A stretch of DNA of 64,000 nucleotides from an uncultured Pelagibacteraceae bacterium. GTDB lineage: Bacteria; Pseudomonadota; Alphaproteobacteria; Pelagibacterales; Pelagibacteraceae. The stretch covers positions 37,140 through 101,139 of the forward strand of contig CACMOQ010000005.1 of the NCBI GenBank assembly GCA_902615445.1, read 5' to 3'. The position numbers and the translations under genes are program-made. The notes under the pieces are model-generated. The model was not told the origin of the DNA and ran no database searches. It saw nothing but the letters and a program-made list of their open reading frames with translations. Positions 3,486 to 35,866 of this stretch are shown here, one piece after another (position 1 is the stretch's first letter; each line of letters opens with the position of its first letter).

Positions 3486-4301
3486 TCAAAAATTTTCATT
3501 TTCATAAAAAACCCATCTCCAATTCAAACTTTTCGTATACTTTTTAAACCAAAAAGATAAATATCTTTCTGCTAAGTATGCATACAGCCTTTTGGTATCA
3601 TATCCTTTTAAAACTTCAAAACCAAAAATCTTTTCACATTCAAATAACCAAGCGAACAGATCTTCAAACCATTTGTTCATTATATGGCTTTTAGAAATAA
3701 ACATAATATGTGGATTAAAAGAGTAATTATCATTTATGAATTCTTTAAAATCACTTCTGTCTTGAACATTTAAAACGTCAATTGCTTTATCAATATTTCC
3801 ATACCCATGATGCATATCAAAATGAAATTTTATTGATTGTTTTTTTTCAAAAAAAAACGGTAAAGGGTTTTTAATTAATGACCTAAAGCCTCTTTTAATC
3901 ATTTTAATCTTTTTGATTTTATTTACACTAATTGGATCACATATAATTGCTTCGATATTTTCCCACTCCTTTTTAGGAGCTTCTAAAATTCTGTCATTAA
4001 TTTTTTCACTATGATCTGATGTTTGTTGATTTGTTTTTGACCAGAATCTTCTTTTTTGGCAAAAACCTATCCAATTGGGGTTATTGAGATCTAATTTATT
4101 TTTCCAATACCAATATTGAAAAGTAAGTTCTGAGTAATATTTTTCTTTTGAAAAAATATTTATTTTATTATCACACTTTAAGTAACCATCAGGTGCTTTT
4201 TCCTGACCTACCCAACAAAGTTTATAGGACGAATTTTCTAAGAATTTTATTCGTTTGTTTGTAATACAAAATAGTTCTAATTGAATATTATCTTTTTTCA
4301 T
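3486..4301 (-). CDS. Hypothetical protein, DUF4422-like capsular/glycan-modification protein
   Basis: 'YYSELTFQYWYWKNKLDLNNPNWIGFCQKRRFW' resembles the conserved motif of DUF4422 proteins in polysaccharide clusters. Confidence 0.5.
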   Translation of the reverse strand: MKKDNIQLELFCITNKRIKFLENSSYKLCWVGQEKAPDGYLKCDNKINIFSKEKYYSELTFQYWYWKNKLDLNNPNWIGFCQKRRFWSKTNQQTSDHSEKINDRILEAPKKEWENIEAIICDPISVNKIKKIKMIKRGFRSLIKNPLPFFFEKKQSIKFHFDMHHGYGNIDKAIDVLNVQDRSDFKEFINDNYSFNPHIMFISKSHIMNKWFEDLFAWLFECEKIFGFEVLKGYDTKRLYAYLAERYLSFWFKKYTKSLNWRWVFYENENF

Positions 4302-4307
4302 CTATTT

Positions 4308-5123
4308 TTAATTAACAATCCATTTTTTGAACTTTTCTTTATTATCTAAAATATAGTTCGGAAATTTGTAGTTTAAATTTACAGGTTTATAGTTTTCTTT
4401 TCTTCCGATTATGTCTTTACCATTATTAACTCTGTCTTTTATCTCTTCTAGATTAAGAAATTTTTCATCAATTTTTTCTTTAAATACGTATGGATCATTG
4501 GTTTCACATAAATTTTTGTACTTATATAGAAGTTTTTCAGGGCTCTTTAGATTACAAAAATGCCATCCTCCATCTTCAATAATGTTGTTTAATCTTAGTT
4601 TGTCTATTCTCCAAAAGGGTCTTTTTTTAAACTTTAAATCTCTTAACCACTGAGGAGATTTTAAATGTTTTTTTACACATATTCTGCTTCCAAACCAAAA
4701 TGGATTTAGTTGACTTTGTAAATTTATTTTATAATAAAAATGCATTTGTTTAAAAACAGCAAATTTCATACTCTTTTTGAATTCTTTTATTTTATTTGGA
4801 TTTGGAATTTCATCTAAATCTGAAATAATAATTAAATCATCTTTATCAGCTTTTTCTATACCTTTTAAGATACAGTTCCTTTGGTAATTTTCTCTTAAAT
4901 AAGGATTATCCCCTTCAGGCATATCTGATATTTTTACGTAGATAATCTTTTCTTTAAACTTTTGAAATTTTAAAATATCAAAATTAAAATTTTTATGATT
5001 ATTTTGCCAAGTTTTATTACTTTCAACAATTACAAAGTAATCAACAAATTCATTTAAGATATTAAGTCTTATATCAAGTAAGAAATCTTCATCTAAATAG
5101 GAAAAACAATCGTAAGTTTTCAT
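4308..5123 (-). CDS. Glycosyltransferase family 17-like protein
   Basis: 'KTYDCFSYLDEDFLLDIRLNILNEFVDYFVIVESNKTWQNNHK', 'IISDLDEIPNP' and 'GGWHFCNL' are GT17 (beta-1,4-mannosyl-glycoprotein GlcNAc-transferase-like) motifs. Confidence 0.8.
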   Translation of the reverse strand: MKTYDCFSYLDEDFLLDIRLNILNEFVDYFVIVESNKTWQNNHKNFNFDILKFQKFKEKIIYVKISDMPEGDNPYLRENYQRNCILKGIEKADKDDLIIISDLDEIPNPNKIKEFKKSMKFAVFKQMHFYYKINLQSQLNPFWFGSRICVKKHLKSPQWLRDLKFKKRPFWRIDKLRLNNIIEDGGWHFCNLKSPEKLLYKYKNLCETNDPYVFKEKIDEKFLNLEEIKDRVNNGKDIIGRKENYKPVNLNYKFPNYILDNKEKFKKWIVN

Positions 5124-5124
5124 G

Positions 5125-6933
5125 CTATTTTTCTTTATTAATCTTTAGTACACCAATAAAAGCTTCTTGTGGTATTTCAACCCTTCCAAATTGTTTTGAT
5201 CTAGCCTTGCCTTTTTTTTGCTTCTCCAACAATTTCCTTTTTCGATCAGTAGCTCCTCCACCATGAATTTTGGTCAAAACATCCTTTTTAAAGCCTTTAA
5301 TTGTTTCACGAGCAATTATTTTACCACCAATAGCAGCTTGAACAGGTATCATAAAATTATGTCTTGGTATCAAATCTTTTAGTTTTTCACAAACTTCCCT
5401 TCCCGTTCTTTGAGCAAAATCCTTATGTATCATCATCGCGAGTGCATCAACAGGTTCGCCATTGACTAATATACTAAGTTTAACTAAATCTCCCTCTCTA
5501 TGCTCAATTATTTCATAATCAAAGCTAGCATATCCACTTGTCATTGATTTTAGTCTATCGTTAAAATCAAATACAACTTCGTTTAAGGGGAGTTCGTAAC
5601 TTAAAACTGCTCTATTACCCGAATAACCAAGATTAATTTGTATACCTCTTTTATCCTGACATAATTTAATAATTGATCCCAAATATTCATCTGGAGTAAT
5701 GATCGTAGCTTTGATCCACGGTTCCTCAATATACTTTATAAAAGTTGGATCTGGTAGACTTGAAGGATTTTGTAAATTAATTATATCACCATTATTTAAA
5801 TTTATTTTGTAAACTACCCCAGGAGTTGTAGTGAGCAAGTTAACGTCGAATTCTCTTTCCAATCTCTCAGTGATTATTTCGAGATGAAGTAAGCCTAAAA
5901 ATCCACATCTAAAACCTAGTCCAAGAGCCGATGATGACTCGGCTTCAAATGAAAAACTTGCATCATTTAATTGTAATTTTCCAAGTCCATCTTTTAATTT
6001 TTGATATTCTGAGCTATCAACTGGAAATAATCCACAAAAAACCACTGGTTTACTTGGTTTAAATCCTGGTAAAGCCTCAACATTCGGTTTTGATGCATCA
6101 CAAATTGTATCACCGACTTTTGTTTCTGATAACACTTTTATGCCAGTGATAATGAAGCCGATTTCTCCAGTTTTTAGTTCATCTATATCTTTGGGTTTCG
6201 GGGTAAATACACCAACTTTTTCAACAATATAATCCCGGTTGGTAGATAGCATTTTAATTTTCATGTTTTTTGAAATTCTACCATTTATTACTCTCACTAG
6301 GATTACTACTCCCAAATAAGTATCGTACCAACTATCAACTAATAAACATTTTAAATTTTCATTTTCATTCCCTTTTGGTCCTGGTAATTGATTGATTATT
6401 TGTTCTAAAATATCCTCAATACCCTCACCTGTTTTTCCTGAACATGGAACTGCATTTTCTGTATCAATTCCGATTACATCCTCAATTTGTTTTTTTGTTT
6501 TCTCTAAATCTGATGCAGGTAAATCTATTTTATTTAGCACAGGTATTATTTCGTGATTAATCTCTAGTGCTTGGTAAACATTGGCTAAGGTCTGAGCTTC
6601 GACACCTTGTGTGCTATCGACTATCAATATTGATCCCTCACATGCGTATAATGATCTGCTTACTTCATAACTAAAATCTACATGTCCAGGAGTATCAATT
6701 ATATTCAAAACATAATTTTTTCCATCTTTAGCTTTATAGTTCAATTTTACAGTTTGAGCTTTAATAGTAATACCTCTTTCTCTTTCTATATCCATTGAGT
6801 CGAGAACTTGTGCTTTCATTTCTCGTTCTGTTAAACCACCACAATTATGGATGATTCTGTCAGCTATTGTTGATTTGCCATGATCAATATGAGCAATAAT
6901 TGCAAAATTTCTTATATTATCAATGGAGCTCAT
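5125..6933 (-). CDS. lepA: Elongation factor 4 (translation GTPase LepA)
   Basis: 602 aa; [39 protein letters not shown]-terminal [29 protein letters not shown]. Confidence 0.98.
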
Positions 6934-32691: not shown

Positions 32692-33017
32692 TGACATATA
32701 TAGTAAACGAAAATTGTATTAAATGTAAACTGATGGATTGTGTTGATGTTTGCCCTGTTGATTGTTTTTACGAAGGAAAAAATATGCTTGTAATTAAACC
32801 GGATGAGTGTATAGATTGTGGCGTTTGTGAACCAGAGTGCCCCGTTGATGCGATTAAAGCAGATACTGAGCCTGAAAGTAAAAAATGGATAGAAATAAAC
32901 AGAAAATACTCAGAGATCTGGCCCAACATTAACGAAAAAAAAGATCCCCCTTTGGATCATGAAAAATTTAAAGATGAGCAAAATAAGTTTGAAAAATATT
33001 TTAAAGAAAACATTTAA
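32691..33017 (+). CDS. fdxA: Ferredoxin, 7Fe-8S/FdxA type
   Basis: '[55 protein letters not shown]'. Confidence 0.95.
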
Positions 33018-33831
33018 ATCAAAGTCTAAATCAAAAATTAAAAAAACAAAAAAACTCAAAAAAATTAAGAAAGATAAAACTAAATCCAAGCCATATAAAA
33101 AAAAAAATAAAACTAAAAAAATTACCAAAACAGTTACAAAAAGAAATAATGAAAAACCCGAGACTAAAACTGATAACTTAAGGATTCCCAAAAGCAATGA
33201 AATAAAACCAGAAATTAAAAAAGTAAAAAAACAAGAAACCGCAAAACGAGATTATAAAATCAAAGACTACGTGGTTTATCCTAAACATGGTGTAGGTCAA
33301 ATATCTGAATTCAAAAAAATCAGTATTGGCGGAATAGACGTAGAAACATACATTATAAAATTTGAAAAAGATAAAGCCAATGGAATGGTTCCTGTGAATA
33401 AACAATCTCATTTAAGACCCCTTGCCACAATCAACCAAGTAAATAAATGTATTTCTATTCTAAAAAGTAAACCTAAAATTAAAAGGTCGATGTGGAGTAG
33501 ACGTGCTCAAGAATATGAAGCAAAAATTTCCTCAGGAAAAATTTATGAATTAGCTGAGGTGGTAAGAGATTTAAATAAAGGGGATGATTTAATGGTTGAT
33601 CAATCTTATTCAGAAAGACAACTATTTGAAAAAGCCTACGAGAGGATATTATCAGAATTTCAAATTATACTTAATATATCTCTTGAAGATACTCAAAAAA
33701 AATTAGATAAGGCGCTTAAAAGAAACTTAAGTCCCCAAAATAAAACAGAAATTAAAGAGGAAAAAAATGAGGATGCTAAAATTTCAGATGAAGGACCTAT
33801 ATCTGATGAAGTTGAGCAATTAGATGATTAA
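32959..33831 (+). CDS. carD: CarD/CdnL-family transcriptional regulator with Lys-rich N-terminal extension
   Basis: From ~33253: '[58 protein letters not shown]...' is a CarD domain; preceded by ~90-98 aa Lys-rich tail; alternative start ATG 32974. Confidence 0.9.
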
Positions 33832-33833
33832 AA

Positions 33834-33875
33834 AAAACGCCCCTCACACGTAAATCGTTATGAGAAGCGTTTTTA
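33834..33875. terminator. Bidirectional terminator-like hairpin between carD and the basic microprotein ORF
   Basis: AAAAACGC..CTCA...TGAG..GCGTTTTT inverted repeat flanked by A and T runs, between convergent ORFs. Confidence 0.6.
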
Positions 33876-33893: not shown

Positions 33894-33971
33894 TTATCTT
33901 CTTCTTCTTTTTTTAGCTTTTTTCTTAGCTTTTTTCTTAGCCTTCTTTGCTTTTTTTCTTCTCTTAGGCAT
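33894..33971 (-). CDS. 25-aa highly basic K/R/A microprotein
   Basis: ATG at 33971; ATG CCT AAG AGA AGA AAA AAA GCA AAG AAG GCT AAG AAA AAA GCT AAG AAA AAA GCT AAA AAA AGA AGA AGA AGA TAA TAG = MPKRRKKAKKAKKKAKKKAKKRRRR**; purine-rich AGGGAGC upstream as a possible SD. Confidence 0.55.
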   Translation of the reverse strand: MPKRRKKAKKAKKKAKKKAKKRRRR

Positions 33972-34168
33972 CTTTAGCTCCCTTTTTAGTTAAACGAATC
34001 AAAATGATTCGCTAATACCTTATTTTTATTTTTTTATGAACGTTATGTCAATTATTTAATTAAAATTAAAAGTAAAATAAAAAAAATTAAAATTAAAAAA
34101 GTTTTTAAATAATTTTAATGTAAAAAAAGTTAATGTTTATGCGCTTTATAAGCTAATATTTTGCAGTT

Positions 34169-35866
34169 TTAATAAAGTTTTTCTAAATCTTGTTTATATT
34201 TTTCTAAAATTTTTTTTCTTTTTAATTTTAAAGTTGGTGTTAACATTCCATTTTCAATTGTAAATTCTTCATTAATTAATTTTATTTTTTTTACTCTCTC
34301 GACGATAGAAAGACTTTCATTAAGATTATTTATATATAATTCAATTTCTTTTTTACTTTTTTCGCTATCACTTACAATTAAAGCAACTAAATAAGTTTTT
34401 TTATCTCCATAAACAAAACTTTGTTTAATTTTCTCATCAAGGCATAACAAGTTTTCGATTTTAGATGGCGAAATGTTGTCACCACCAGAATTTACAATAA
34501 TTTCCTTTTTTCTATCAGTAATTTTCAAATTTCCTTCTTTTGTAATTTCACCTATGTCTCCTGTGTATAACCAACTATTTTTGAGTACTTCGTCCGTTTC
34601 CTTTTTCTTATTCCAATAACCAAGCATTACATTTTCGCCTTTAACCAGAATTTCACCATCCTCTGCAATCTTCACTTTATTTGTTTTAAAAGGGGGTCCT
34701 ACAGTCTCAATTTTTATTTTTCCAGGAATATTGCAACTTACTACTGGGGATGCTTCAGTAAGGCCATAACCTTGTAAAGTTTGTAATCCAATTGAGTTCA
34801 AAAACTCACCAATTTTTTGATCTAGTGCACCTCCCCCAGAAACAAAAGCCTTTAGATTTCCACCAAACTGATTTTTGACTTTTCTTCTTACTAATTTTTC
34901 ACATAAGAAATTTATAATTTTTTCTTTAAAGCTCATATTTTCATTATTTAGATCCTTTATTCCAAGCAAAATTGTAGAAGATATTAATTTTTTTTTGAGC
35001 CCTGTTTGATTTGAAAAATTCATCGAAATCTTGTTATATAAATTTTGATAAAATCTTGGTACAGCAGTCATTATGGTTGGTTTAGCAACTGACATATTAG
35101 ATAATAATTTTTCTAAACTTTCAGCGTAATAAATTTTAGCTCCTAATGTGATTTGAACGAATTGAACAGCATGCTCGTATGAATGAGACAAAGGTAGCCA
35201 AGTCAAAAAAATAGGTTCACTATCTTTAACTAGTGAATTCAAAATATCCTCCGCTCCTTCACAATTGGATAAAATACCTCCATGACTAAGCATAACACCT
35301 TTAGGATCACCAGTTGTTCCAGATGTATAAATTATACAAGCGAGATCTTTTCTTTCAATATTTTGGTTGAAGCTCAAATGATCTAAAGTTTTTTTTTCAG
35401 AAAATCTTTCAAGAATACTTTCTATACTATCAATTTGATTATTTATATTTTCTATTGATAAAACTTTTATTTCTTCTGAAATGAATTTATCAATTTTTTT
35501 TAATTGAATATTATTTGAGACGATGCAAATTTTTGGTTTACAATCATTAATGATATATTCATAATCTTTTTCAGAGTAAGTTGTAAATAAAGGAACTGTT
35601 ACCCCGCCAGCATTCATGATGGCAATGTCTGAAATAAGCCACTCAGGTCGATTTTCAGACAATAAAATACATCTATCTCCTTTAGATAGATTTTTTTTTA
35701 AATATTCTGATAATATTTGGATATTTATTTCAACTTGTTTCCAAGTTATAAAATCACTTCTATAATCTTTTAACCATTTTAAAAAAGGCTTATCAGAAAC
35801 AGAGTTTATCTCCTCACACTTTGAAAAAAAAAGTTCAACTAGACTGTTAATTTTACTTAATTCCAT
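34169..35866 (-). CDS. Long-chain acyl-CoA synthetase (AMP-binding)
   Basis: 565 aa; 'DLACIIYTSGTTGDPKGVMLSHGGI', 'LQGYGLTEASPVVSCN', 'WLYTGDIGEITKEGNLKITDRKKEIIV'. Confidence 0.93.
   Translation of the reverse strand: MELSKINSLVELFFSKCEEINSVSDKPFLKWLKDYRSDFITWKQVEINIQILSEYLKKNLSKGDRCILLSENRPEWLISDIAIMNAGGVTVPLFTTYSEKDYEYIINDCKPKICIVSNNIQLKKIDKFISEEIKVLSIENINNQIDSIESILERFSEKKTLDHLSFNQNIERKDLACIIYTSGTTGDPKGVMLSHGGILSNCEGAEDILNSLVKDSEPIFLTWLPLSHSYEHAVQFVQITLGAKIYYAESLEKLLSNMSVAKPTIMTAVPRFYQNLYNKISMNFSNQTGLKKKLISSTILLGIKDLNNENMSFKEKIINFLCEKLVRRKVKNQFGGNLKAFVSGGGALDQKIGEFLNSIGLQTLQGYGLTEASPVVSCNIPGKIKIETVGPPFKTNKVKIAEDGEILVKGENVMLGYWNKKKETDEVLKNSWLYTGDIGEITKEGNLKITDRKKEIIVNSGGDNISPSKIENLLCLDEKIKQSFVYGDKKTYLVALIVSDSEKSKKEIELYINNLNESLSIVERVKKIKLINEEFTIENGMLTPTLKLKRKKILEKYKQDLEKLY

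Follow-up and report, generated by a model that had tools for sequence, protein, structure and literature searches.

Does the short interval between carD and the neighbouring gene for an AMP-binding protein harbour a protein-coding gene that annotation has missed, and what could a product made almost entirely of lysine, arginine, and alanine do in the cell? In the surface ocean no bacterial group is more abundant than SAR11, which also serves as a model of genome minimalism in free-living cells and has little non-coding DNA. The interval was analysed within a stretch of 64,000 nucleotides, referred to as the window, and compared with the corresponding loci of relatives. The compared sequences identify the polybasic open reading frame (ORF) of this interval as a real, strongly conserved, stand-alone gene missing from the annotation.

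Organization of the microprotein locus

The locus is composed of the following features, given in window coordinates:

32959–33831, plus strand: carD, the convergent neighbour, encoding a protein with a lysine-rich N-terminal tail (Pfam PF02559 and PF21095)
33836–33871: terminator-like hairpin common to the microprotein gene and carD (read from the sequence; conserved in the alignment)
33894–33971, minus strand: ORF of the polybasic microprotein, product MPKRRKKAKKAKKKAKKKAKKRRRR (ATG, 25 amino acids, TAA followed by an in-frame TAG)
33978–33982, minus strand: Shine-Dalgarno core GGGAG within the nearly invariant AGGGAGCTAAAG that precedes the ATG (alignment of relatives)
33995–34011, minus strand: 5'-UTR hairpin CGAATCA-TTT-TGATTCG (pairing kept, loop length variable, also found in the second family of the order)
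34023–34028, minus strand: -10-like hexamer TAAAAA of the -7A type (93 of 99 distinct upstream regions at a spacing of 17 bp)
34046–34051, minus strand: -35 hexamer TTGACA (no mismatch in any of the 121 distinct upstream regions with the standard start-site pattern)
34169–35866, minus strand: gene for an AMP-binding, acyl-CoA synthetase-like protein, upstream of the microprotein gene (Pfam PF00501)

The initial annotation had described a microprotein built only of M, P, K, R, and A. The coordinates, strand, ATG, length of 25 amino acids, and TAA-TAG that it gave are all exact in the sequence, and the composition is borne out by the residue counts (13 K, 6 R, 4 A, 1 M, and 1 P). The pI of the peptide is ~12. 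Lysine and arginine constitute 76% of MPKRRKKAKKAKKKAKKKAKKRRRR and 45% of the next-best ATG ORF of 20–120 amino acids in the window, so that the microprotein ORF is the sole one of this length range with a K+R fraction above 0.45. Simulating the window with Markov models (60 replicates × three model orders) produced zero such ORFs with a K+R fraction of at least 0.6.

The surroundings of the gene, which on the plus strand comprise a helicase (by sequence inspection), a TerB-domain gene, a ferredoxin, and carD, are typical of SAR11. Both the convergence with carD and the terminator-like hairpin between the two genes, as previously claimed, were found in the sequence. The shared hairpin pairs better on the strand of the microprotein gene than on that of carD because, in this genome, the minus strand is fully paired with two G-U pairs, whereas the plus strand has two C-A mismatches. 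Runs of T come after the hairpin. A simple consensus scanner did not call the terminator-like element between carD and the microprotein gene.

Beyond what had been described initially, the ORF is preceded by the Shine-Dalgarno sequence GGGAG, the TTGACA element, and the 17-nt 5'-UTR hairpin, all of which are kept in relatives. The gene would be transcribed from its own sigma-70 promoter into an mRNA of ~185 nt with the 5' end folded as a hairpin. The consensus ribosome-binding site would then direct the synthesis of a disordered peptide in which 19 of the 25 residues are positively charged. By the consensus scanner alone, the TTGACA-17-TAAAAA promoter is below significance. The main text of an mdRNA-Seq study of transcript starts that includes SAR11 promoters says nothing on the microprotein locus.

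The 5'-UTR hairpin, of the form CGAATCA-N-TGATTCG, is positioned close behind the expected transcript start, and its inverted repeat occurs once in the genome. The loop spans 4–7 nt among relatives, counted from CGAATC to GATTCG. The mean folding energy of the hairpin is -8.1 kcal/mol, compared with -2.2 kcal/mol for shuffled sequences (104 distinct windows). Taken over its full length, the transcript shows no unusual degree of structure (z -1.1), and only the 5' hairpin and the terminator are conserved in it. In several genera (L166, L168, L169, and L194) the hairpin arms are re-registered to other bases, and the 5' side ACGAATCA is unchanged. The fixed ACGAATCA (window 33995–34013) suggests a sequence-specific role in addition to folding. 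An operator reading of the palindrome is disfavoured by the variable loop and by the re-registered arms elsewhere; it may still be the site of a protein. A leader peptide was ruled out, as no same-strand gene is located downstream before the terminator and the convergent carD.

The carD/AMP-binding intergenic region is absent from the list of a SAR11 RNA-motif survey (PMC2704228). In genome G146 the same stretch is 355 bp long with a GC content of 23.7%, which is under the 26% GC cut of that survey. Directly behind the AMP-binding gene, AGTTAATGTTTATGCG (minus strand CGCATAAACATTAACT; window 34129–34144) is nearly invariant across the genus, and the AT-rich stretch that separates it from the promoter is variable.

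Conservation and coding constraint in SAR11

CarD was used as the anchor for finding loci, because the sequence of the microprotein is too simple for direct searching. The 110 loci from the genus were collected from whole genomes (30) and GTDB contigs (80), two sets that can overlap. An intact Lys/Arg/Ala ORF of 22–35 amino acids is present in 109 of them, in the same position and in the orientation convergent to carD; in the remaining locus, the end of the contig falls inside the ORF. Among loci with the standard start site, the length of the microprotein is 20–35 amino acids. The start-site pattern GGGAGYTAAAGATGSCNAARMRNMR has exactly one match in 94 of the 113 genus genomes with a completeness of at least 90%, and zero matches in control searches. 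Some of the genomes that the pattern does not match have an altered start of the ORF, for example MATKRKAK... in G193 and MATKKKAK... in G146. Viral contigs contained zero matches to the pattern, which rules out a phage-borne gene.

Other genera of the family encode diverged K/R/A versions, which range from MAKRRKKAKKKKKAKKRRRKRR to MAKKRKKAAKKKAPAKKRKAAKKTTKKKAKKRKR. In the second family of the order, of which 26 loci were collected, two stopping short of the site, a protein of 40–99 amino acids with a variable number of Lys/Ala/Pro repeats of the KKAAPKKK type is encoded at the same site. It begins with a conserved segment of nine residues, ME(E/D)LK(V/I)IFA or a close variant. The second-family gene is taken to be the same gene on account of its matching position, orientation, TTGAC -35 element, and CGAATCA hairpin, the last two being present at the locus in both families. 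This assignment does not depend on alignment of the proteins, which would carry little meaning for such sequences. Outside the order, no such gene was found in a sample of 48 carD loci from 45 genomes with flanks of 1.5–2 kb.

The initial annotation had proposed synteny with carD as a check, and the microprotein adjoins carD in all inspected SAR11 loci that cover the site, with one exception. In L191, from the ~62% complete genome G116, the AMP-binding gene joins the middle of carD directly and the microprotein is missing; a chimeric join or a deletion is the apparent cause. As judged from the compared loci, the microprotein gene is single-copy and general across the SAR11 order.

The variation among close relatives carries the signature of a coding sequence. 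Eighteen distinct DNAs encode just two 25-mers and differ at nine sites, eight of which are synonymous third codon positions, while the ninth produces a change between Pro2 and Ala2. Over 70 distinct ORFs, pN/pS is 0.23, with Lys/Arg exchanges scored as nonsynonymous; this is an uncorrected simple pairwise count without a tree and not a formal test. The direction of the count is clear and points to purifying selection at the protein level. A substitution pattern lacking protein-level constraint, named at the outset as evidence against a coding microprotein, was looked for and the opposite was found. Frame-disrupting insertions or deletions were sought as well. Differences in length are in frame in all loci except L184, from a draft genome of a sister genus (G126), where an A run close to the end of the ORF appears to contain one base too many (minus strand, near 2750–2810). 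The ORF of L184 reads MAKRRKGGKKKKKAKKKKKK and then leaves the usual frame, owing to a sequencing error or a real change. With this single apparent one-base frameshift in ~170 loci, the claim of an unlisted coding microprotein stands. A chance ORF is ruled out by the synonymous third-position variation together with the Markov simulations.

The same data bear on the alternative that the functional product is an RNA, either a small RNA or an antisense to the 3' end of carD, and that the ORF is incidental. The unit is short and isolated, has a conserved 5' hairpin and terminator, and converges on carD, with which it has the terminator in common; in mycobacteria, carD is under the control of an antisense RNA (PMC8820732). 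An RNA product does not account for third-position synonymous variation and in-frame insertions and deletions, or for the consensus Shine-Dalgarno sequence and start codon. The locus matched nothing in Rfam at gathering thresholds. The synonymous-site coding pattern and the unremarkable structure of the transcript led to the rejection of a pure RNA gene, and we rate an RNA function with an incidental ORF as the least probable of the explanations considered.

Two further observations concern the second family. In this family, as in L173 (positions 3973–5262), the H1-like gene is followed by a gene for a tRNA-binding-domain (CsaA-like) protein and a gene for an RpoH-like sigma factor, both identified by sequence inspection, and not by the AMP-binding gene. 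The second-family 5' UTR, for example that of L173 upstream of position 3604, contains a conserved AACCTCTAACTAAACCC before GGGGGGAG. Base pairing between AACCTCTAACTAAACCC and the ribosome-binding site is conceivable, which hints at control of translation.

Proposed polyanion binding and its alternatives

Polyanion binding is proposed as the activity of the microprotein because a peptide of lysine, arginine, and alanine offers no visible means of catalysis or specific recognition. The strict conservation of the gene suggests a real role in DNA or RNA binding. We consider it somewhat more probable than its negation that the microprotein corresponds to an H1-like tail by itself, a disordered polycation neutralising the charge of DNA and/or RNA. 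The peptide would bind polyanions without sequence specificity through charge neutralisation, mainly DNA and possibly RNA, and would help to compact or organise the nucleoid, or serve as a gene-encoded polyamine, beside two HU/IHF-type proteins. Neutralisation of the nucleoid or of nucleic acids is ranked first because the closest analogy is to the tails of H1 and of bacterial H1-like proteins. Such a simple sequence could nevertheless serve any polyanion, including rRNA, mRNA, or polyphosphate. The genome contains two genes of the HU/IHF family, the products of which share the presumed nucleoid role but are folded DNA-bending dimers without sequence relation to the microprotein.

The likeness to histone H1 tails, noted in the initial annotation, is strengthened by the KKAAPKKK repeat protein of the second family, in which the same locus would yield a longer form that starts with MEELKVIFA and continues with Lys/Ala/Pro repeats in varying number, a feature shared with bacterial H1-like proteins. 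Bordetella BpH1 is another bacterial histone-H1-like, lysine-rich protein. The microprotein shares with Chlamydia Hc2 and Pseudomonas AlgP a low-complexity Lys/Ala(/Pro) sequence with a very high pI, and a length that changes by the number of in-frame repeats (20–35 amino acids, and 40–99 in the second family). The size of Hc2 varies by lysine-rich pentamers (PMC2848022), and the disordered KPAA tail of AlgP has been likened to H1 (PMC9239181). Unlike these proteins, the microprotein is far shorter and consists of the tail only, with no folded domain. The 124-amino-acid helical domain at the N terminus of AlgP has no counterpart in the microprotein, and in the second-family protein only a nine-residue N-terminal segment precedes the tail.

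Searches with profiles and known structures were negative, as expected for so simple a sequence. The microprotein was unmatched by Pfam and NCBIfam profiles except for one chance match at an E-value of 8.5. The 85-amino-acid form of the second family gave only a weak match to a putative L29 (E 0.52) among chains of known structure.

The main rival to the H1-like reading places the microprotein in the ribosome, as an order-specific component that would neutralise rRNA within a pocket or an intersubunit bridge; we regard this as unlikely. With ~25 residues and a pI of ~12, the microprotein belongs to the same class of size and charge as eL41, mycobacterial bS22, and bL37, and like them it was missed by annotation. 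As far as is known, these ribosomal proteins have a fixed length and non-repetitive sequences. The microprotein has variable K/A repeats at its centre and no ribosomal context: a snug rRNA pocket should forbid a length of 20–35 amino acids in one family and 40–99 in the other, aromatic or other fixed contact residues are missing, and the gene is located outside any ribosomal-protein operon. A phmmer search against PDB chains gave no match, with low power for a low-complexity query of 25 amino acids. In favour of a ribosomal function, the gene is single-copy and near-universal in the genus and has a consensus promoter and Shine-Dalgarno sequence. Furthermore, bL37 (24 amino acids) and an unannotated eL41-like bridge protein of Mycobacterium smegmatis came to light only through cryo-EM (PMC5876184).

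Association with polyphosphate or storage granules, as in the case of AlgP or PhaF tails, appears very unlikely. The composition, above all that of the second-family form, resembles the KPAA tail of AlgP, which is found on polyphosphate granules in Pseudomonas aeruginosa (PMC9239181). However, the inspected neighbourhood contains no linked polyphosphate or PHA genes, and the microprotein is without an N-terminal granule-binding domain.

Relationship to CarD and place in the SAR11 gene set

SAR11 CarD has a lysine-rich tail of ~100 residues ahead of its domain. Tails of alphaproteobacterial CarD (CdnL) are of the same chemical kind as the microprotein, rich in K and A, and are encoded by the adjacent gene. 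The tails are fused to CarD, whereas the microprotein is encoded separately and on the other strand, and is restricted to the SAR11 order among the inspected loci. A functional module of the two proteins, suggested by their neighbourhood, is possible. In such a module the polybasic microprotein would aid the lysine-tailed CarD or RNA polymerase at promoters, or CarD would control its expression by feedback; this is an improbable explanation, which we place below the ribosomal one and above the granule one. Throughout the order the microprotein gene accompanies carD, and A occupies the last -10 position of its promoter, which places it in a class (-7A) for which dependence on CarD has been proposed in Alphaproteobacteria (PMC8407463). 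In Caulobacter, CdnL shows nonspecific DNA binding (PMC5324124). However, neighbourhood by itself is weak evidence, and the microprotein gene is on the opposite strand with its own promoter. Many Alphaproteobacteria that lack the microprotein likewise have lysine-rich CarD tails, in some cases as almost pure Lys/Ala/Pro of up to 200 residues. The -7A promoter is no evidence of control by CarD because such -10 hexamers are common throughout the class (PMC8407463).

A more far-reaching version of the H1-like reading is that the microprotein is an order-defining, near-universal, and highly expressed free H1-tail peptide, the smallest known nucleoid compactor, which together with the lysine-tailed CarD determines how compact the chromosome is and how active promoters are genome-wide in streamlined, regulator-poor cells. 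We think this improbable, slightly more so than a ribosomal role and slightly less so than the module with CarD. If the H1-like peptide does compact DNA, it would be a minimal natural analogue of a histone tail and would bear on chromosome organisation in very small, regulator-poor cells.

We found no paper on a lysine-rich or H1-like microprotein of SAR11 in the literature, and an earlier listing in supplementary tables is possible. The lack of reports may be explained by trypsin fragments too small to detect and by an ORF near or below the limits of gene callers. Since a near-universal, constrained gene has been missed by annotation, part of the SAR11 core gene set is still unlisted.

In several alphaproteobacterial families (L202, L203, L210, L213, L221, and L222), the N-terminal tails of CarD are H1-like, rich in Lys/Ala/Pro, and ~100–200 residues long.
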